A stretch of 64,000 bases of DNA from Salinirubellus salinus (GTDB taxonomy: Archaea; Halobacteriota; Halobacteria; Halobacteriales; Haloarculaceae): positions 1,364,001 to 1,428,000 of the forward strand of contig NZ_CP104003.1 in assembly GCF_025231485.1 (NCBI RefSeq). The letters run 5' to 3'. The translations under genes and the position numbers were made by a program. Shown in pieces: positions 22,144-46,443 of the stretch. The stretch's first letter is position 1. Each line of letters starts with the position of its first letter. Under the pieces are notes generated by a model. That model was not told the origin of the DNA. It searched no databases and saw only the letters and a list, made by a program, of their open reading frames with translations.

Positions 22144-23631
22144 ATGACAGACGGGCGGGACCTCGCGGACGGGCCGACCGAGAAGTGTGGCGTGGTGGGC
22201 GTCTCACTCGACGGGCGGGCCGCCGCGCGACCCCTGTACTACGCACTGTACGCGCTCCAGCACCGCGGGCAGGAGTCGGCCGGCATCGTCACCCACGACG
22301 GGTTCCAACAGCACTCCCACGTCGAGATGGGGCTCGTCGGCGACGCGTTCGACGAGGGCGACCTCGACCAGCTCAACGGGCCGACCGGTATCGGCCACGT
22401 CCGATACCCGACCGCGGGGAGCGTGGACAACTCCTGTGCCCAGCCGTTCTCGGTCTCGTTCAAGTCGGGCTCGCTCGGGATGAGCCACAACGGGAACCTC
22501 GTCAACGCCGACGAGATCCGGGACGAACTCGCGGGCTTGGGCCACGCGTTCACCTCCGACGGGGACACCGAGGTCATCGCCCACGACCTCGCACGCAACC
22601 TGCTGGAGGAGGACCTCGTCCGCGCGGTGAAACACACGATGAAGCGCATCCACGGCTCCTACTCGCTGACGATCATGCACGACGACACCGTTCTCGGCGT
22701 GCGCGACCCCGAGGGAAACCGCCCGCTCTGTATCGGGAAGCTCGACGACGGTTACATCCTCGCCAGCGAGTCCGCCGCCATCGACGTGCTCGACGGCGAA
22801 CTCGTCCGCGACGTCCGCCCGGGCGAGCTCGTCATCCTCCAGCCCGACGGCGGCGGGTTCGACGCCTACCAGCTGTTCGAGCGCGAGAACACCGCCCACT
22901 GCTTCTTCGAGCACGTCTACTTCGCCCGCCCGGACTCGGAGATCGACGGCAACCTCGTCTACGAGGTCCGCCGCGAACTCGGCCGACGGATATGGGAGGA
23001 GAGCGGCGTCGAGAGCGACGTGGTGATGCCGGTCCCCGACTCGGGCCGCGCGTTCGCCTCGGGGTACGCCGAGGCCGCACAGGAGGAGGGCGCCGACGTC
23101 GAGTTCGCAGAGGGGCTCATGAAGAACCGCTACGTGGGCCGAACCTTCATCATGCCGACACAGGACGCCCGCGAGCGCGCGGTCCGCCTGAAGCTCAACC
23201 CCATCCGTGACGTGGTCGAGGGGCGCTCCGTGACCGTCATCGACGACTCCATCGTCCGCGGGACCACCTCGAACCAGCTCGTCCAGCTCCTGCGCGACGT
23301 GGGTGCCGAGGAGGTCCACGTCCGCATCGGGGCGCCCGCCATCGTCGCGCCCTGCTACATGGGCATCGACATGGCCACCCGTGAGGAACTCATCGCGGCC
23401 GACCGGAGCACCGAGGACATCCGCGAGGAGATCGGCGCCGACTCGCTCGCCTACCTCTCCATCGACGCCGTCGCCGGGGCGCTCGGTCAGTCCCGCGCCG
23501 ACCTCTGTCTCGGCTGTGTCACCGGGGAGTACCCCTACGACATCGACGGCGAGGCGACGGACCGCGACGTGGAGCGGCCGGTCATCGGGGGGGAGCCGGA
23601 GGACGAGCGGACGGCGCCTGCCGACGACTAA
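22144..23631 (+). CDS. purF: Amidophosphoribosyltransferase
   Basis: A 495-residue enzyme for the first step of purine synthesis, PRPP plus glutamine to phosphoribosylamine. The N-terminal nucleophile is Cys15 (CGVVGV) after a 14-residue propeptide, so self-processing is expected. The glutaminase domain includes QHRGQESAG and GHVRYPTAG; the PRPP loop is VIDDSIVRGTTS. Cysteines in TAHCFF, in APCYMG and in CLGC match the 4Fe-4S ligands of the B. subtilis-type enzyme. The protein is complete with an acidic tail, and is transcribed alone. Confidence 0.95.
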   Translation: MTDGRDLADGPTEKCGVVGVSLDGRAAARPLYYALYALQHRGQESAGIVTHDGFQQHSHVEMGLVGDAFDEGDLDQLNGPTGIGHVRYPTAGSVDNSCAQPFSVSFKSGSLGMSHNGNLVNADEIRDELAGLGHAFTSDGDTEVIAHDLARNLLEEDLVRAVKHTMKRIHGSYSLTIMHDDTVLGVRDPEGNRPLCIGKLDDGYILASESAAIDVLDGELVRDVRPGELVILQPDGGGFDAYQLFERENTAHCFFEHVYFARPDSEIDGNLVYEVRRELGRRIWEESGVESDVVMPVPDSGRAFASGYAEAAQEEGADVEFAEGLMKNRYVGRTFIMPTQDARERAVRLKLNPIRDVVEGRSVTVIDDSIVRGTTSNQLVQLLRDVGAEEVHVRIGAPAIVAPCYMGIDMATREELIAADRSTEDIREEIGADSLAYLSIDAVAGALGQSRADLCLGCVTGEYPYDIDGEATDRDVERPVIGGEPEDERTAPADD

Positions 23632-25445: not shown

Positions 25446-25579
25446 TCGGGGCGCGACGCCCGCCACCCGGGTTCGGTGTAGCCGTCGCTCTCGGGTGTGT
25501 AGTGATGCGTGGGTGCTGTCTGCGAGCACCCGCACTGGGGGCCGATGAACGACCCCGGGACCCCGTCAGGGGTGAGCAG

Positions 25580-25664
25580 TGCGTGGGACCGGATTTGAAC
25601 CGGCGGACCTCTACAGGACAGCGCCCTCAACGCTGCGCCGTTGGCCTGGCTTGGCTACCCACGC
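25580..25664 (-). tRNA. tRNA-Leu(GAG)
   Basis: An 85-base class II tRNA. The acceptor stem pairs GCGTGGG with CCCACGC, the discriminator is A at 25580, and CCA is not encoded. The anticodon stem is CAGCG/CGCTG around loop TTGAGGG, giving anticodon GAG, and a long variable arm (TCCTGTAGAGGTCC region) marks tRNA-Leu. The T arm is GCCGG-TTCAAAT-CCGGT. No intron is visible. Confidence 0.96.
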
Positions 25665-25838: not shown

Positions 25839-27002
25839 ATGCGCAGTGCCCTCCCCGTCGCCGTGCTCCTCCTCTGTGCGGTGCTCGCGGGGTGTTCGTT
25901 CGCCGACACGGGCGGGCCGCCAACTCCGGCCGAGACCCTGACTCCGGTCCCCATCGACGAGTCCACGCCGACGGCGGCTCCCGACCGCCCGACCAGACAG
26001 CCACGGACGGCGACCCGGACGCCCGCCGCGCGGCCGTTCGACCTGCCGAACGGCTACGGCGTGTCGGGCGTGACCGACGTCCGGGTGGCGGCTCAGGGCC
26101 ACCGACTCTCCCTCGACAACCGGTCGAACTACCGACTCGACGCCGAGGCCGTCGTGATCGAGGCCGACGGTCCGCGCCGGACCACCTCGACGCGACGGCT
26201 GGTCTCGCAGGACGCGACGCTGGTTCAGATCCGGGAGAACGGGTCGCTCACGCTCGCGGTGTACGAGACGGACGAGGCGATCTACGCCCTGCGGCTCGAC
26301 CCCAGCGACGCCCGGTTCCGACTGCAGTCCCAGTACGTCACGATCGCGGGTCCGACGGTGGACCGGCAGTTCTCGGACGTGGTCACGGCGTTGCGGTACC
26401 GGCGGGGGGCCGCCACCAGCATCGTCTCGAACGCCGACTGGGGCGCGATGGGGGTCGTGGAGACGGAGAACGAGACCGTCCTCGAGTACCGCGCGACCCG
26501 ACCCGCCCGGCCGCTGTCGGGGGACGCCGGGATGACACAGTACGAGGCGCGCCTGCTGGTCGACGAGTCGGGGCTCGTCCGGTTCGCTGGCGTCCGAGGA
26601 GTCGCCGAGTCCGAGGACGGCTGGGGCCAGCGCCGCTACACCACCCGAGTCTCGGATATCGGGACGACCACCGTGGAACCCCCGGCGTGGCTCGGGGGCG
26701 TGGCCGAGGCGAACGCGACGATCGAGGACGGCTACGTCGTCGTCGAGAACACCGGGGACCGTGCCATCCCACTCTCGACGGTCGAAGTGGACCGCGTTGA
26801 CTCCGGCTAAGGCACCACGCTGAACGGAACTCTGGCGCCGGGCGAGCGGCTCTACGTCGGTGCGGAGCGGAGCCTGAGCAGCTACCGGGTCGCCCGCTCG
26901 CCGCCCGAGGCGGGTACCTACGACCCCATGGACGGCACGGTCACGGTCACGCTGGGCGACGAGTCCGTGGCCGTGGTACTCGGCGTGAAGGCCGAGTCGT
27001 GA
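25839..27002 (+). pseudogene. Lipoprotein gene interrupted by an in-frame TAA
   Basis: The first part (25839-26810) encodes 323 residues with a signal peptide and lipobox LAGC at 16-19, a Thr/Pro-rich linker to about residue 65 and a beta-rich domain resembling haloarchaeal DUF7537-type lipoproteins. The frame stops at TAA 26808-26810, yet the same frame stays open for 63 more codons to TGA at 27000-27002, reading GTTLNGTLAPGERLYVG onward with the same G/C-rich third positions. The tail looks like the missing last strands of the terminal beta domain (DGYVVVENTGDRAIPL). A single-base change would restore the frame. It could be a true mutation, an assembly error, or a natural end with a remnant. 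Confidence 0.7.
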
Positions 27003-27039: not shown

Positions 27040-27435
27040 TCAGTCCGCGGGCCGGAACAGCGGGGCCGGGTCGTCGCCCTCGCCCTTGATGTAGCCGGTC
27101 AGTTCGACGCTGTCGCCGATGTCGACGTGGACCTCGCCGCCGTTGCCGTCGACGCGACCCATCACGCGTGCCTCGCCGACCTGCACGACAGCGACCTGGT
27201 AGCCACGCTCCTCGACGCCCTCCGGCGGGACCATCACCGTCGTCTCGGTGTAGACCTCGCCGCTCGTCGGGAGTTCGACCGTCTCGAGGTCGCGGGTGCC
27301 GCAGTGGGGGCAGGCCCCCTTCGGCGTCCCGAGGACGTTGGCACACGCGCCGCAGGCCTGCCCGAGCAATCGGCCCTCCTTCAGCGCACGAGTCCACTCG
27401 CCGTAGGTCAGCCGCTCGGGGAGGTCGGAGCTCAT
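27040..27435 (-). CDS. DUF35 zinc-ribbon/OB-fold protein, thiolase partner
   Basis: A 131-residue protein. The N-terminal helix SDLPERLTYGEWTRALKEG is followed by a zinc ribbon with CGAC (28-31 region) and CPHC, then an OB fold with RGYQVAVVQVGEARVMG. In archaea such proteins bridge acetoacetyl-CoA thiolase to HMG-CoA synthase or stabilise SCP2-type thiolases. Its start overlaps the thiolase stop by four bases (ATGA), so the two are co-translated. It is expected to form a complex with the product of the 27432 gene. Confidence 0.9.
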   Translation of the reverse strand: MSSDLPERLTYGEWTRALKEGRLLGQACGACANVLGTPKGACPHCGTRDLETVELPTSGEVYTETTVMVPPEGVEERGYQVAVVQVGEARVMGRVDGNGGEVHVDIGDSVELTGYIKGEGDDPAPLFRPAD

Positions 27436-28598
27436 CGGCGGCCCTCCATGACCGTCACCAGCGTGGTCGCGGCGTCGCCACCCAGGTTGTGCGCGACGCC
27501 GTACTCGGCCTCGTCCAGTTGCCGGGCGCCCGCCTCACCGCGAATCTGCTCGGTCAACTCGACGATCTGTGCGGCACCCGTCGCGCCGATGGGGTGCCCC
27601 TTCGCCTTCAGACCGCCCGAGGCGTTGATGGGGATGTCGCCGTCGTACGAGGTCCGGCCCTCGGCCGCGGCGGGGCCGCCCTGCCCGTCCTCGATCAGAC
27701 CGATGGCCTCGCTCGCCATCACCTCGGCACCGGTGAAGCAGTCGTGGACCTCCGCGAAGTCCACGTCGGCGGCGGTGATGCCGGCCTGTTCGTACGCCTG
27801 CGCGCTCGCGTCGCGGGCCGCCTGTGTGACGTGCGGCGTGAGCTTGTCGCCGATGGGGACGACGTCGGTGGCGTGGCCGATGCCCGTCACGTCGACGGGA
27901 GCGTCGTAGGAGTCGGCCACCTCGTCGCTGACGAGGACGACCGCCGCCGCACCGTCCGAGAACGGACAGCAGTCCATCAGCCGGAACGGGTCGGCGACGA
28001 TAGGTCCCTCCAGCACCGCCTCGACGGTGGTCTCCTTGCCGAAGTGGGCCCGCGGGTTCCGCGTCCCGTGTTCGTGGTTCTTCACCGCGACGTGCGCGAG
28101 GTGTTCCGGGGTCGTCCCGTGCTCGTGCATGTGGCGCTTCGTGAGCAGGGCGAACACGCCGGGGAACGTGAGTCCGGTCGGCTGTTCGTACTGCCGGTGG
28201 GAGGCCGAGGCGAAGATCCGGGTCATCTCGGCCGTGTCGAGGCCCGTCTGTGGCGTACAGCGCTCGACACCGCCGACGAGGACCACGTCGTGGATACCTG
28301 CTTCGACGGCCTGCACGGCGTTCTTGAACGCGTTGGCGGAGGTGGCACACGCGTCCTCGTAGCGCTGGGCCGGGACGCCCGCGATGCCGACGTGCGAGGC
28401 GAGTTTCGGCGCGAGGTGAGTGTCGTTCTCCGTCTGGCCACCCATCGCGTTCCCGAAGTAGAACGACTCGACGTCGGCGGGTTCGACGCCCGCGTCGTCG
28501 AAGGCCTCGAACGCGGCCTCGCCGAACAGTTCCTGCAGTGGTCTGTCGTGGACGCCGAACTTCGTCATGCCGGCACCCACCACGCTGGCCCGTGTCAT
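27432..28598 (-). CDS. SCP2-type thiolase (acetyl-CoA acetyltransferase family)
   Basis: A 388-residue thiolase beginning MTRASVVGAGMTKFG. The active Cys is in DACATSANAF, the HDCF motif (EVHDCFTGAE) replaces the NEAF of classical thiolases, and the His is in GLKAKGHPIGATG. These are hallmarks of SCP2/archaeal thiolases that need a DUF35 partner, encoded immediately downstream with an ATGA overlap. Likely reaction: condensation of acetyl-CoA for mevalonate synthesis or cleavage of ketoacyl-CoA. HMG-CoA synthase is not adjacent here. The 42 upstream in-frame codons are Arg-rich and not counted. Confidence 0.9.
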   Translation of the reverse strand: MTRASVVGAGMTKFGVHDRPLQELFGEAAFEAFDDAGVEPADVESFYFGNAMGGQTENDTHLAPKLASHVGIAGVPAQRYEDACATSANAFKNAVQAVEAGIHDVVLVGGVERCTPQTGLDTAEMTRIFASASHRQYEQPTGLTFPGVFALLTKRHMHEHGTTPEHLAHVAVKNHEHGTRNPRAHFGKETTVEAVLEGPIVADPFRLMDCCPFSDGAAAVVLVSDEVADSYDAPVDVTGIGHATDVVPIGDKLTPHVTQAARDASAQAYEQAGITAADVDFAEVHDCFTGAEVMASEAIGLIEDGQGGPAAAEGRTSYDGDIPINASGGLKAKGHPIGATGAAQIVELTEQIRGEAGARQLDEAEYGVAHNLGGDAATTLVTVMEGRR

Positions 28599-28740
28599 AC
28601 CGGAGAGGTAGGGTCGGGTGTGGTTAAGAGTGACCCGTTTCCGGCCGGACCTGCGCGGGCGTGCCGTCGAGTCGTCCAGTACCGGCACGAACCGGCGGAC
28701 TCCACGGGGTGGTACATCCTGCACCGAGACTCTCGAGCGA

Positions 28741-40110: not shown

Positions 40111-41178
40111 TCAATCGAGTCGATAGCGGAGGATGGCGGCGACGCCGCCGAGGTTCCGCAACTGCTGGCCGGGGTCGAACTCGCCGGAGAACACCGTCAC
40201 CTCGCCCCCCTGCCGCTCGACGGTCTTCACGAGTTCGTTGGCGTCCACGTCCCAGTCGCCTTCGCCGGCCCGCTCCTTCCGGAGCCGCTCGTCGAGCACC
40301 AGCAGGGTCTCGACGGCGCCGAAGTCGGCGGCCTGCTGTACCTCCTCGATGCCGTAGGCCGCCTTGGCGCCCGTGGCGATCTGCTCCATCAACTCGTCGA
40401 CGAGCTCGGCCTCGCGAGCGATGCGTGTCTCGGCCTGCACCCGGTCGACGGCACCACGCTTGAGCACCTCGTGGACCCCACGGTCACCGACGCTCGCGGT
40501 GTCGACGGTCTGGATCTTGCCGGCGAGGTCGGGGTACTCCTCGGTGATGTAGTCCAGCGCGTCCTGCTTGGTGAACCCCGGTCCGGCGAGCAGGATGGCC
40601 TCCACGCCCATCCGGTTCAGGACGGCGCCGAGCTCCGCGAACAGCTCCGAGCGCGGCCGGGCGAACTCCCCCTTCCCGGTCGGGCCGGTGATGGCGGCGC
40701 GTTCCTCGACGCCGTACTGCGCGACGGTGTGGACGTACGCCTCGCCCTCCTCGACGGTGGCGATGGCGACGTCGGGGTTCTCACTCGCCTCGACGGCCTC
40801 CTGCAGCCGTTCGAGCTGGTCGGTCTGCCAGACCTTCGTGATGGAGATCTCGGTGCGCTCCTCCACGTTGAGCGTGTGGTGAAAGCCGAGCTGGTCCTCG
40901 CGAGAGCAGTCGACGATCTCCCCGCCGACCCGGAGTCGGTTGGCGAACTTCGCGAACTCCACGTCCTCGACGGCGATCTCGACCCACATGTGCTCGCGCT
41001 CGCCGCCGGTATCGCGCATCTGGTCGTCGTTGCGCTGGATACGGCGGGTGGTGTCGCCCGAGACCCGGTCACCCGGTTCGAGGACGTACTGGAGGTGCCA
41101 GAGGTCGTCGAGGCTCTCGGGGACCACGTCGATGCGCTCTCCCTCGCCCTCGACGCGCGTCCGGTCGGCGATTCGCAT
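40111..41178 (-). CDS. pelA: Pelota, mRNA surveillance/ribosome rescue factor
   Basis: A 355-residue protein with the three domains of archaeal Pelota: N-terminal Sm-like domain with [18 protein letters not shown] and RRIQR, central eRF1 domain 2-like (about 135-260), and C-terminal L7Ae-like domain (about 262-355) with a final VAAILRY. The GGQ loop of release factor eRF1 is absent, as expected. Pelota binds stalled ribosomes with the GTPase ABCE1/aEF1A partner. It shares the strand and neighbourhood with rqcH. Confidence 0.95.
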
Positions 41179-41217
41179 GGGCGTGACGAGGAGACGACCA
41201 GTAAAGGAGCCTGCTAT

Positions 41218-41976
41218 CTAGGTGAGCGGGTCCGGGTCGGGGATGCGGTCGTCACCCGTCTCCTCGTCCCCCTCGCCGGTGTCGTCCCCGGTCCCGCCGA
41301 AGCCGTCGTCACCCGTGGGTTCGACACCGAGCCCCTCGCCGAAGCCACGCCCGAACAGGTAGTAGGTCACCACCTGGACGTAGAACAGGACGAAGATACC
41401 GACGAGGAGCACGGTCAGCAGGGCGCCGACGAATCCCAGCACCAGCGAGACGACGATGGCGAGGACGACGGCCACGAAGTAGTCGCCGGTGAACGCACCC
41501 TTCCGGACCGTCGAGAGGTCGAACGCCGCGCCGAGATCACCCTCGTGGGCGAAGTTCGCCGTGGCGGCGGGGATGAGGTAACTCGCCACCAGCACGAGGA
41601 GGATACCCACGAGGAAGACGAGGCCACCGACGATGCCGAGGCCCGTTCCCGCGCCGCCCGCGCCGCTCTCCGCGGCGAAGGCACCCGTCCCGACGACGAA
41701 CACCCCGAAGAGGATGACGAGGATGGGGACGATGGCGTACGCGAGCTGGACGACGAACAGGAGGATGCCGTCCACGAACAGTTCACCCCAGTCCTCGAAC
41801 ACCGGCGCTCTGTCCTCCCCGCGGACGCCAGCACGGAGCACCCGGACGAGGTACCCCTGGACCGGCAGGATGGGCACGAACAGGACCGACCCGAGTATCG
41901 TCAGGACACCACCGATGAGCACCGTCTTCAACCAGTCGTCGTGCTGCTGCGGGAACGAGAGGGCTTCGCTCAACAT
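41218..41976 (-). CDS. DUF4013 membrane protein
   Basis: A 252-residue protein beginning MLSEALSFPQQHDDWLKT, with about six hydrophobic segments, a conserved GDLGAAFDLSTVRK-like cytoplasmic loop and an acidic Gly/Asp-rich tail (210-252). This is the DUF4013 layout: an interface helix, then paired helices. It is a paralogue of the gene at 42051. Function is unknown; DUF4013 proteins are frequent in haloarchaea and methanogens. Confidence 0.85.
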   Translation of the reverse strand: MLSEALSFPQQHDDWLKTVLIGGVLTILGSVLFVPILPVQGYLVRVLRAGVRGEDRAPVFEDWGELFVDGILLFVVQLAYAIVPILVILFGVFVVGTGAFAAESGAGGAGTGLGIVGGLVFLVGILLVLVASYLIPAATANFAHEGDLGAAFDLSTVRKGAFTGDYFVAVVLAIVVSLVLGFVGALLTVLLVGIFVLFYVQVVTYYLFGRGFGEGLGVEPTGDDGFGGTGDDTGEGDEETGDDRIPDPDPLT

Positions 41977-42050
41977 ACGGACGACCGTTCAGAACTCCGA
42001 TACAAATAGGTTCTGCAGGTGTGGGGTGGTTACCGGGTGTGAGTGCCTGT

Positions 42051-42749
42051 TCAGGCGACGGCCGTGCCGACGTCCTCGCGGGACTCCATCTCCATCTGGG
42101 TCGCGTCCTCGAAGCCACGGCCGTAGAGGTTGAACGCGACGACGGCGGCGTAGAAGTTCACCGGGATGGCCAGGATGAACCCCAGGACGGGGACGGCGTT
42201 CAGGACGCCGACGACGATGCCGGCGACGATGCCGACACCCAGGGCCATCAGCCACGGGGTCGCGTACTTGCCGCTGACGAGCGCGGGGCGGAGTTCGCCG
42301 AAGGCGAACCCCGATCCGATGTTGCCAGTCCGGGCGTAGTTGGCCAGCGCCGCGGGCGTGACGTACCACACGGCGAGGAACAGGATACTCGAGACGGTGA
42401 ACCCGAGCAGGGAGCCGAAGATCGCGCCGGCACCCACGTCACCGCCGGTCAGCGCGCCGAGGACGACGCCACCGACGCTGATGCCGAACACGATACCCGG
42501 TATCAGGAGGTAGACGAAGGCCACGACGAACGCCTTCAGTCCGTCGACCAGCATCTCGCCGTACTCGTCGAACACCGGGGGCTGGTCGTCGCCGTCCATG
42601 CTCCCGCGGAGCACGCGCATGTAGTAGCCGAGCACGACGAGCACGGGCAGGAACAGGAAGCCCAGCAACAGCATGACCGAGCCGATGGCGATGGTCTTGA
42701 TCCAGTTCTCCTCGTCGTTCCGCGGGTAGTTGATGGCTTCTTCGAACAT
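42051..42749 (-). CDS. DUF4013 membrane protein (paralogue)
   Basis: A 232-residue protein starting MFEEAINYPRNDEENWIKT, matching the neighbouring DUF4013 protein in order of features: FLPVLVVLGYYMRVLRGSM, PPVFDEYGEMLVDGLKA, and FEELRP-like FAFGELRPALVSGKY. About six hydrophobic helices are predicted. The tail is short. Tandem position and shared strand suggest duplication; no operon overlap exists (75 bases between the stop and the next start). Confidence 0.85.
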   Translation of the reverse strand: MFEEAINYPRNDEENWIKTIAIGSVMLLLGFLFLPVLVVLGYYMRVLRGSMDGDDQPPVFDEYGEMLVDGLKAFVVAFVYLLIPGIVFGISVGGVVLGALTGGDVGAGAIFGSLLGFTVSSILFLAVWYVTPAALANYARTGNIGSGFAFGELRPALVSGKYATPWLMALGVGIVAGIVVGVLNAVPVLGFILAIPVNFYAAVVAFNLYGRGFEDATQMEMESREDVGTAVA

Positions 42750-42869
42750 GGTGAGCGCCGACGGGTGCCCCGTCGAACGATAGAACCACTCCCTCCGCGA
42801 AATTAAGGCTGGAGTCGGCGCAGGGCAACTCCCGTTTCCCGGACTGTACCCGCAGACGACACGACCGCG

Positions 42870-44972
42870 TCAGTCGACGATACGGCTCCCGCCCGCCGGG
42901 CAGAACTCCTGGATGAGGTCCGGGGAGGCAACCTTCCGAACGAACGACCCGTCGGCGAACCGGTCGCGGAACTGGCGATAGACCATCTTCGCGATGTCGT
43001 TCTGGGCGTACTGTCCGGGCTCGAGGCGGACGAGCGTCTCGGCCTGCCCCTCGATCGCCGACGGCGGCCCCCCGACGACGCGCGAGTAGGGCTCGACCTG
43101 GATACCGACGGCCACGCCGACCGGCGTGTCCTCGTAGTACGTCCGGTCGCCGCGGACGACGAACGACCCCTTCTCGACGTACTCGCCGGACTCGGGGGTC
43201 TTCGAGACCTGGTCCGGAGCCACCTCGTAGACGTCGCCGGTGAACTGACCGTCCTTCCAGATGGAGGAGTAGGAGACGGCGAACTGGGCGGCCTCCTCGC
43301 GTGACTGCTGGGGGATGTCCACGTCGCGGGCGGCCTCGCTCGGCCCGGTCGCCTTCAGGATCGTGGCGGGGGCCCCGTGGGCCTGCGTGTGGAAGAACCG
43401 GTCGCCCTTGTCCATGTACTTCTTGACGAGTTCCTCGTTCTGGTCGGCGTTTCGCCCACCGATGACGAGGAAGCCGTCGCTCGTGTGGAACCACCGGAAC
43501 CGCTCGTACCACTGCTCGTCGCGGCGGATCGGGACCGACGAGCGGGTGAGCCAGTCGACGTCCTCGGACTCCTCCTCGTCGTCCTCCTCCGCCTGCTCGT
43601 CGGCCGACCAGTTCGCCTTGCGTTCCTCGAGTTCCGCCAGTTCCTCGCGGGTGTCCTCGATGGCCGCGAGCGCGCCCTCTTTCTTCTCGGCGACGCGCTT
43701 GGCCTCGGTGTAGAGGCGGTCGGCGTTCTTCTCGACGCCCTCGCGGACCCGGACGGTGACACGGGTCTGGTCGTCACCGAGTTCGAGCGTGACGGTGCCC
43801 TCGCTCCCGTCGACGTCGACGACGGCCTCGGCCGCGGGGATACCGCGTTCGGCTGCCTCCCGAAGCGTCTCGGCGATGTCGTCCCACGGCACGTCCTCCT
43901 CGCGGGCCGACCGCACCGTCCGGACGACCTCGTCCACCGTGTCGTAGTGTGCGTACAGCAGTTCGGCCTTCTCCCGTTCGGCCTCGGCCTGCTCCTCGAA
44001 GTTCTGGATGGCCCCCTCCTGCTGCTCGATGATGCGTTGCTTGCGGGCGATCTCCTCCTCGAAGTCCGGCCGGTCGCTCGTCGGGTCGGCCGGCTGTTCG
44101 GTCTCGCGCTCGAGTTCGTGGAAGTAGACGTCGAGCGCCTCGTTGAACGTCTCGAACGCCTCGCTCTGGAGGTGTTCGTGCTCCTCGAGCGGGACGGGCG
44201 TGGCGTCGACGACCTCGCCGTCGTCGTCCCGGTAGAGTCGCGGGTCGAGGTCCCCCTCCTTCAGGGTGGTCCGGAGGGTCTCGATGACGCGCCAGAGGTC
44301 GTCGTACGCGTCGTCGGTGGCGTCAGCGATGTCGAGCGTCTTCTCGACCCCGGCCCGGGTGCAGAGCTCCTCGCCCCAGAGGCCACCGAAGTTGAGCTGG
44401 GTGGCGATGGTCCGGACCACGTCGGTGTCGGAGTCGTCCATCACGGCGCCGAACTGCTCGCGCGTGGCAGTGAGCGGGTCGAACCGCGAGGCCGGGTAGC
44501 CGTACTGACTGCCGGGCGCGACGGTCCTCGATTTGAGGCGGACCGTGTCGAGACAGGAGACGACCTCGCGATCCTCGTTCAGGACGGCGACGTTCCCGTC
44601 GCCGAACAGTTCGACGACGACGAGCGTGGCCGCGTCACCGCGCTCGAAGCGGAAGGTGAGGATGCGGTCGAACTCGTACTGTTCCACGTCCGCGAAGTCC
44701 GCGCCAGAGACGCGGTTCCGGAGCATCATCGCGAAGTTCGGCGGGCGGCCGGGGGCGTCGGGCACACGCTCCTGTGCGGCGAGGTGGACGCGTTTCGGGT
44801 CGCGGACCTCCGCCAGCAGGTCGAGTCGGCCCGCGTCGAAGTCGCGCATCTTCAGCCGCAGGAGGTCGTCCGGATAGAGGTAGGCCTTGTCGACCTTCGC
44901 GCCCGCGTGCCGCCGGAGTTCCGTGACGAGCGCCGCGAGGTCCACGCTCGTCAGGGCACGCTTCTGATCCAT
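42870..44972 (-). CDS. rqcH: RqcH/NEMF-family ribosome quality-control protein
   Basis: A 700-residue NFACT protein. NFACT-N spans about 1-225 with LTSVDLAALVTELRRHAGA and NFAMMLRNR; two helix-hairpin-helix and long coiled-coil regions follow at about 285-350 and 395-445; NFACT-R lies near 500-600 with WYERFRWFHTSDGFLVIGGR and DRFFHTQAHGAP. RqcH/Rqc2 binds peptidyl-tRNA stuck on the large subunit and can add alanine tails. A break of acidic linker (EEDDEEESEDVD) precedes NFACT-R. It is close to pelA, which acts earlier in rescue. Confidence 0.94.
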   Translation of the reverse strand: MDQKRALTSVDLAALVTELRRHAGAKVDKAYLYPDDLLRLKMRDFDAGRLDLLAEVRDPKRVHLAAQERVPDAPGRPPNFAMMLRNRVSGADFADVEQYEFDRILTFRFERGDAATLVVVELFGDGNVAVLNEDREVVSCLDTVRLKSRTVAPGSQYGYPASRFDPLTATREQFGAVMDDSDTDVVRTIATQLNFGGLWGEELCTRAGVEKTLDIADATDDAYDDLWRVIETLRTTLKEGDLDPRLYRDDDGEVVDATPVPLEEHEHLQSEAFETFNEALDVYFHELERETEQPADPTSDRPDFEEEIARKQRIIEQQEGAIQNFEEQAEAEREKAELLYAHYDTVDEVVRTVRSAREEDVPWDDIAETLREAAERGIPAAEAVVDVDGSEGTVTLELGDDQTRVTVRVREGVEKNADRLYTEAKRVAEKKEGALAAIEDTREELAELEERKANWSADEQAEEDDEEESEDVDWLTRSSVPIRRDEQWYERFRWFHTSDGFLVIGGRNADQNEELVKKYMDKGDRFFHTQAHGAPATILKATGPSEAARDVDIPQQSREEAAQFAVSYSSIWKDGQFTGDVYEVAPDQVSKTPESGEYVEKGSFVVRGDRTYYEDTPVGVAVGIQVEPYSRVVGGPPSAIEGQAETLVRLEPGQYAQNDIAKMVYRQFRDRFADGSFVRKVASPDLIQEFCPAGGSRIVD

Positions 44973-45023
44973 GGCGGTGCGACTCGGGGCGCGAGGAAAG
45001 GCCCGTCGGTTCCCGACGCCACC

Positions 45024-46310
45024 TCAGGCCACGGCCGCGAACTCCTCGCCGAACGCGAGGAACAGCCCCACCCCCACGAGGCCGACGGCGCTCGCCACGC
45101 CGAACGAGAGCACCGGGTCGATACCGTACAGGTAGCCACCGAGGACGCCCGCCGGCACGACGAGCGTGTTCCGGACGAGGTAGTAGGTGCCCGTGACGCG
45201 GCCCCCCGCGTTCGCCTCGGCCGGACCGACGATGAGCGCCTTGTGGGAGGGGAGGCCCGCGAACCGGAGCCCCGAGAACGCGAACAGTGCGACGAGCACC
45301 CACTGGTCGGGCGGCGCGAGTATCAGGAGAATCGGGAACGTGGCGTAGACGAGGAAGCCCGTGGCGACGACGGGCTTGAGGCCGACTCGCTCTGCCACCT
45401 TCGAGACGGGCACCATCGTCAGCAGCGCGACAGTCATCTCGACGCCGAGCAGGACGCCGAAGAACGCGGCCGGCGAGATGGCGACGCCGAACCCCTCGAA
45501 GCCGACACCGAGGCGCTTCGCGACGACGATGGAGAAGAACACGTAGACCATCCCGTTGGCGAACCGGACGAGCGTGTCGCCCAGGAGGAGCGGCCGGAGC
45601 GGGTCCGGCATCCCGAGCAGGTCGTCCCGTATCGTCCGCAGGCCCGCGAACGACTTCCCGAAGGAGTCCCCGGCCGGGTCGTAGAGGCGGTGCTGCGCGA
45701 ACGTAGCGAGCAGGCCGAACGCGACGGCGAGCAGCAGGACCGCCTGGAACCCCTCGACGAACGGGGTGACCCGTTCGACGACGAACGCGGCCAGCAGGGG
45801 CCCGAGCAGGAACCCCACCCGCCGGAACACCTCCGTCGAGGCGAAGCCGCTGGCGAGGCGCTCGGGCGGCACCGACTGCTTGACGATGGCGAACGTCGCA
45901 CCCAGCCCGAAGGACTTCCACGCCTGCGCGAGCAGGAGGCCGAGGAAGAGGAACGCCCACGCCGGCAGGCCGAACACGGCGAGGTCGGGCGCGAGTGCCC
46001 AGACGAGGAAGCCGGCCGAGGAGGCGAGCCCGAACGCCGTGAGCGCGGTCCGCGAGCCGATGCGGTCGGAGACCAGCCCACCGGCGTAGGGGTAGACGGC
46101 CCCTACGAGGTCGGAGAACGATCGGTAGAGTCCCACGACCAGCGCGCTCGCTCCGAGCGCGTCGAGGTAGAGCCCGAAGTACTGGTTCGTCATCTGGAAA
46201 CCGAGCGAGAACGCCAGCATCGCCACCGAGAGGACGAGGACGTCGCGTTCGAGCGAGAGGAACTGGCGGAACGGGCCGAGCGTGTCCGCGGCCTCCTCGT
46301 CCCTTGCCAT
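45024..46310 (-). CDS. Major facilitator superfamily transporter
   Basis: A 428-residue transporter with twelve predicted helices. The cytoplasmic loop between helices 2 and 3 carries GGLVSDRIGSRTALT, the MFS motif GGxxSDRxGRR, and the equivalent loop in the second half reads KVAERVGLK. The substrate is not recognisable. ATG at 46310 is supported by a TATA-like element at about 46335-46343 (GTTTTATGC on the minus strand), giving a leaderless transcript. It follows rqcH on the same strand by 51 bases but reads as a separate unit. Confidence 0.85.
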   Translation of the reverse strand: MARDEEAADTLGPFRQFLSLERDVLVLSVAMLAFSLGFQMTNQYFGLYLDALGASALVVGLYRSFSDLVGAVYPYAGGLVSDRIGSRTALTAFGLASSAGFLVWALAPDLAVFGLPAWAFLFLGLLLAQAWKSFGLGATFAIVKQSVPPERLASGFASTEVFRRVGFLLGPLLAAFVVERVTPFVEGFQAVLLLAVAFGLLATFAQHRLYDPAGDSFGKSFAGLRTIRDDLLGMPDPLRPLLLGDTLVRFANGMVYVFFSIVVAKRLGVGFEGFGVAISPAAFFGVLLGVEMTVALLTMVPVSKVAERVGLKPVVATGFLVYATFPILLILAPPDQWVLVALFAFSGLRFAGLPSHKALIVGPAEANAGGRVTGTYYLVRNTLVVPAGVLGGYLYGIDPVLSFGVASAVGLVGVGLFLAFGEEFAAVA

Positions 46311-46443
46311 CGGACTGGAGGTAGGGAGCACCGAGCATAAAACCGACCGACGGAGGCCCGACAGTCGGCGTATCTACCCCTACATATAGTGGCGTCTCAC
46401 ACTGGCCAAGACCTCACCCTCTTTTTCACGGTAGGGGTGGCGC
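46311..46443. promoter_or_regulatory. MFS promoter and an AT-rich element
   Basis: The region holds the MFS TATA-like sequence near 46335-46343 on the minus strand and a second strong TATA-like run, ACATATAG, at 46382-46389, which could serve the small ORF at 46444. A GGGGTGG stretch just before that ATG resembles a ribosome-binding site. Confidence 0.45.

Follow-up and report, generated by a model that had tools for sequence, protein, structure and literature searches.

Probable recent nonsense mutation in the C-terminal Ig-like domain of a haloarchaeal DUF7537 lipoprotein gene

Among the routes by which haloarchaeal genes are inactivated, section 3.6 of a published account lists the appearance of an in-frame stop by point mutation (PMC4500146), and a passage of another gives over 300 pseudogenes for Haloquadratum walsbyi (PMC3119063). 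Stop-codon read-through is described as relatively rare in an extract of PMC6728339. The gene analysed here corresponds exactly to one of the routes given in that section of PMC4500146 and differs from it in nothing essential. It encodes a lipoprotein with the domain DUF7537 (PF24381), on which our literature search found no publication; its product shares with the haloarchaeal lipoproteins of this family a Pfam match above the cut-off, a lipobox and the PxW motif.

The gene lies in a window of 64,000 nucleotides of Salinirubellus salinus (by window we mean the whole stretch of DNA that was analysed), on a contig of 4.13 Mb in a genome of 4.38 Mb that comprises two contigs, has 100% completeness and has haloarchaea as its relatives. 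The frame opens at ATG 25839 and continues for 323 codons to 26807, where it is followed by TAA (Table 1). Judged by eye, the N terminus is a signal peptide with a lipobox cysteine (MRSALPVAVLLLCAVLAGC), the motif LAGC being one that we take, from general knowledge, to be a lipobox. In addition to the Pfam match of the protein given in Table 1, a six-frame search of the genome scored PF24381 at this locus at 28.5 bits, under the cut-off of 31.7. A preliminary description of this DNA had placed the in-frame TAA at 26808-26810, with 63 open codons from there to a TGA at 27000-27002, and all of these coordinates are right. It also noted, correctly, that a single base change could abolish the stop, but the same holds for any stop codon and it is no evidence. 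Past the TAA, no in-frame ATG, GTG or TTG occurs before ATG 26928 (codon 40), and a restart close to the stop is therefore not expected to yield the lost half as a separate product. The TGA lies 37 bases from the end of the convergent gene and the TAA 229 bases from it; when extended to the TGA, the frame fills the space before this gene.

Table 1. Coordinates of the interrupted gene, its parts and its neighbours in the window
Feature	Position	Strand	Content or basis
Truncated DUF7537 lipoprotein gene	25839..26810	+	signal peptide, lipobox, Thr/Pro-rich linker, DUF7537 core, C-terminal domain remnant, TAA
Lipobox LAGC, residues 16-19, with predicted lipidated cysteine	25884..25895	+	read by eye
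DUF7537 (PF24381), best Pfam match, residues 219-285	26493..26693	+	34.6 bits against a cut-off of 31.7
First, pre-stop part of the putative C-terminal Ig-like domain (profile match starts at 26715)	26715..26807	+	profile search and model
In-frame TAA; sense codon in relatives at this column	26808..26810	+	alignment and profile search
63 codons that keep the coding signature, second part of the C-terminal domain, presumably untranslated	26811..26999	+	
TGA ending the frame beyond the TAA	27000..27002	+	
tRNA-Leu (GAG), conserved upstream neighbour	25579..25664	-	
ChsH2-like zinc-ribbon/OB-fold gene, convergent neighbour	27040-27435	-	
Thiolase, convergent neighbour	27432-28724	-	

The length of the open stretch is unremarkable. 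At 69% G+C, the expected probability of finding at least 63 open codons is 0.27, and stretches of this length follow the stop in 18 of the 47 genes of the window that were predicted by a codon-score script written for this analysis, the lipoprotein gene included. The composition of the stretch is another matter, and here the preliminary description had rightly pointed to a matching codon bias: G+C contents at codon positions 1, 2 and 3 are 0.698, 0.556 and 0.921 past the stop and 0.706, 0.545 and 0.910 before it, and codon log-odds average 0.329 and 0.313, respectively. The other five frames of the post-stop DNA yield values from -0.10 down to -0.96. Only 3 of the 17 other open stretches of at least 63 codons exceed 0.3 (MFS into NFACT, NFACT into the ORF at 42051-42749, and DUF4013 into the eRF1-family gene), and they do so because the next gene follows in the same frame. 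The coding signal past the stop is beyond chance, though the open length is not.

The genes named in these three cases stand in a row on the minus strand (40111-46331: eRF1-family gene, DUF4013 gene, ORF 42051-42749, NFACT gene and MFS gene), in which several neighbours share one reading frame. The eRF1-family gene is presumably Pelota-like and the NFACT gene, we assume, RqcH/NEMF-like; it is likely that these are two ribosome-rescue factors encoded close together.

When the piece spanning the stop was compared with the 146 genomes of the family, 31 genomes besides its own gave weak matches at E <= 0.01, the best at 2.4e-5. Judged by eye, many of these loci were set aside, being lamin-tail-like proteins (with WNNxGDTV tails) or lying in other frames. 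Ten loci from the search and a paralog from the genome itself (L002) were aligned with the window gene using MAFFT. These 11 relatives are lipoprotein-like, with a PxW motif and, past it, a C-terminal domain of roughly 100 residues; six pass the Pfam cut-off for DUF7537 (L002, L034, L040, L041, L050 and L058) and five miss it (L032, L033, L035, L036 and L039), L035 and L040 being 73% identical. At the column of the TAA all 11 have an amino acid (A, D, G, R, S, T or Y), in L002 adjoining a gap. Two features of this set call for caution with the alignment and with the profile built from it: 10 of the relatives were retrieved by a query containing the post-stop stretch itself, and 7 belong to one subfamily.

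Against a profile of the 11 relatives built without the window row, the 63 residues past the stop reach 36.3 bits on their own (E 5.5e-10), where the best of 2000 shuffled versions reaches 10.4 bits. The pre-stop piece alone scores 12.3 bits, near its best shuffle (11.9), and both pieces together 52.8 bits. By these scores the post-stop stretch is homologous to the second half of the relatives' C-terminal domain; the preliminary description had called it a plausible continuation of the beta domain. A second profile, A1, was made from nine of the relatives, again without the window row; L039 and L058 were left out because their subfamily was already in the profile. With at most 31 candidates scored per genome, A1 gave at least 72 matches in at least 46 of the 146 genomes, counts that cover the domain, whatever protein carries it. 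Only the match of the window (47.2 bits over 26715-26987) has a stop, one TAA, inside, and all 71 others among the matches listed are uninterrupted. Every listed match covers model positions 44-74 and hence includes the stop column, which is at about position 54. In the genome itself, where all 117 candidates were scored, there are two further A1 matches at E <= 0.001, both uninterrupted (C2:154756-155094, a member of A1, and C1:4020483-4020818, a non-member). A sense codon at the TAA position, expected earlier in related strains, is thereby found in distant relatives, among the 11 aligned as among the profile matches listed, but not in related strains.

Named relatives with an uninterrupted domain include Salinibaculum sp. 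KK48, Halorientalis sp. LUM.68 (a metagenome-assembled genome) and Halorientalis regularis TNN28. The proteins of Salinibaculum (L212) and H. regularis (L214) align through the stop column without a gap, at 23-25% identity over the aligned proteins; both are uninterrupted and have Ser-rich tails, whereas the window gene is interrupted. Only the C-terminal domain of the modelled Salinibaculum protein is confident (pLDDT 60-87 in blocks over residues 211-300, against a mean of 41.3). It is modelled as a beta sandwich, with the stop column (residue 242) in the fourth of eight strands. By way of this relative's model, the domain matches the lamin-B1 tail (3jt0_A, Z 9.3, 94 residues, 3.4 A) and a type IV pilus of Haloferax volcanii (8fj5_A, Z 8.6, 83 residues, 3.0 A), followed by many Ig-like folds. 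The Z values are middling and would name a common arrangement rather than a family. The best Foldseek match of the relative's model had an E of 0.01, a Pfam LTD match (E 0.089) stayed under the cut-off, no Pfam family passed the cut-off for the C-terminal domain in the nine members scanned, and a search of the sequences of solved structures with A1 returned nothing significant (best E 0.41). When the window protein was modelled read through, mean pLDDT was 39.0, with blocks of 50-72 in the C-terminal domain; this model places three short strands before the stop and five after it, positions that are tentative. As only three of eight strands come before the stop, the remnant of the domain, about 30 residues, probably does not fold.

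The ends of other family members were also compared. From a search that scored at most 16 candidates per genome, thirty DUF7537 loci were taken, each the best match to the Pfam model in one of 30 genomes and hence not a random sample. A profile search in all six frames found the C-terminal domain in none of these high-scoring loci, which end 6-23 residues past PxW, whereas the window product ends 39 residues past it, in the middle of the domain. The preliminary description would have been contradicted by relatives that end at the TAA, and none of the 30 does so. L003-L007, the five loci of other genomes that match the core best, the top one at 35% identity, end at most 10 residues past PxW. 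The genome itself has 13 DUF7537 matches. Eight were examined and comprise, besides the window gene, one with an intact C-terminal domain and six that stop 7-31 residues past PxW. As an end at 39 residues is unlike that of the loci examined, the TAA is not an end typical of the family. Across these loci the C-terminal domain appears to be an optional part of DUF7537 proteins. Elsewhere in the family, another genome has a DUF7537 match with an in-frame TGA inside (G101:C1:1112911-1113690).

The search for an ortholog centred on the gene neighbourhood. Among the 146 genomes only that of the window bears its genus label, and a pattern scan of genome contigs for the core protein found no relative; the paralog locus, used in a near-identity search of plasmids, returned nothing. 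The neighbourhood is conserved, with DUF420, a DUF7129 zinc-ribbon gene and tRNA-Leu (GAG) on one side and the ChsH2-like gene and the thiolase on the other. DUF420 was found in 16 of 20 regions examined, and all 16 have the tRNA, but tblastn detected the lipoprotein gene in none of them. Flanks beyond the tRNA were added for L129-L132 to cover the place where the lipoprotein would be expected, again with no match, and about 2.1 kb beyond the tRNA were covered for L146. No orthologous locus came to light, and the uniform absence from these 16 regions argues that at its place next to the tRNA the lipoprotein gene is peculiar to this lineage. Among the remaining four regions, L141 and L145, chosen as known carriers, have DUF7537 genes, with no match past query residue 285. 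Two genomes classed as different species (G023 and G092) gave matches at the same coordinates, and apparently share their main contig or are near-identical.

Our results are best explained by a recent in-frame nonsense mutation that removed an accessory Ig-like domain from a DUF7537 lipoprotein, a reading to which we give a probability of roughly three in four. The ancestral protein would have consisted of a signal peptide, lipobox, linker, DUF7537 and C-terminal Ig-like domain. A single nonsense codon would have arisen in frame inside the last of these, and translation would now end at the TAA. The product would retain the lipid anchor and the DUF7537 core, and would end in a remnant of some 30 residues with three short strands, the last five strands being absent. 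What is seen at the locus is what a gene disrupted by a nonsense codon should present, namely a sense codon in relatives (the 71 others among the matches listed) and a downstream coding signal (GC3 0.921). The change appears to be recent, since the codon signature is unchanged and neither a frameshift nor a second stop has accumulated past the TAA. The earlier proposal of a recent nonsense mutation or a sequence error gains support from the sense codons in relatives and from the lack of relatives ending there.

The second half of that proposal has to be weighed separately. If the TAA were a base-calling or assembly error, the strain would make the full-length lipoprotein; the frame, which is otherwise undamaged on either side of the TAA, and the uninterrupted state of all other listed matches speak for this reading. 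Isolated substitution errors are, however, rare in finished-type assemblies. The two contigs and complete gene content of this genome suggest such an assembly, and the site is no homopolymer run. We infer a true mutation and regard an error as unlikely, if deserving of some weight. The odds that we place on a real mutation over an error, about four to one, are a judgement and not a result; they draw on general experience of finished assemblies and on the richness of haloarchaeal genomes in disrupted genes.

Programmed read-through, in which some ribosomes would pass the TAA and yield a short and a long lipoprotein, fares far worse. As in known systems of this type, the downstream frame is intact and retains its coding signature, as expected if it were still translated. 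Contrary to them, the stop is not conserved, being absent from each of the other 71 domain matches listed, and a tRNA reading UAA is not found among the 44 identified, a list that is incomplete, tRNA-Trp being absent; near-cognate tRNAs might also decode UAA. These tRNAs were found with the Rfam tRNA model and can all be named; 40 came from the default run and four (L244, L247, L253 and L256, for Asn, Met, Gln and Pro) when introns were allowed. Furthermore, TAA terminates 4 of the 47 predicted genes of the window, including the lipoprotein gene and purF (22144-23631), whose protein aligns to its last residue with its relative L142. The absence of the stop from the other listed matches and of a UAA-reading tRNA from those found agrees with the low rank given to read-through at the outset. 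A low, regulated read-through that would anchor two forms of the lipoprotein, with and without the Ig-like domain, is accordingly very improbable; if true, it would amount to UAA recoding in a haloarchaeon. It is scarcely credible that the gene truly ends at the TAA and that the downstream frame is open by chance, for open stretches of this length are indeed common at this G+C content but this one has the codon signature of a gene, shows homology across the stop with a post-stop piece that matches the profile on its own, and begins where none of the 30 DUF7537 loci ends.

Under a recent nonsense mutation, the feature is most likely an ordinary interrupted gene that calls for no new decoding mechanism. 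The main use of the finding is in annotation, where the gene should be flagged as interrupted in its C-terminal domain. A by-product of the analysis is the description of an unnamed, apparently Ig-like C-terminal domain of haloarchaeal lipoproteins, carried by some DUF7537 proteins and not by others. As many members of the family do without this domain, the truncated lipoprotein may plausibly remain functional, and the change is best described as the loss of an accessory domain, not necessarily of the gene.
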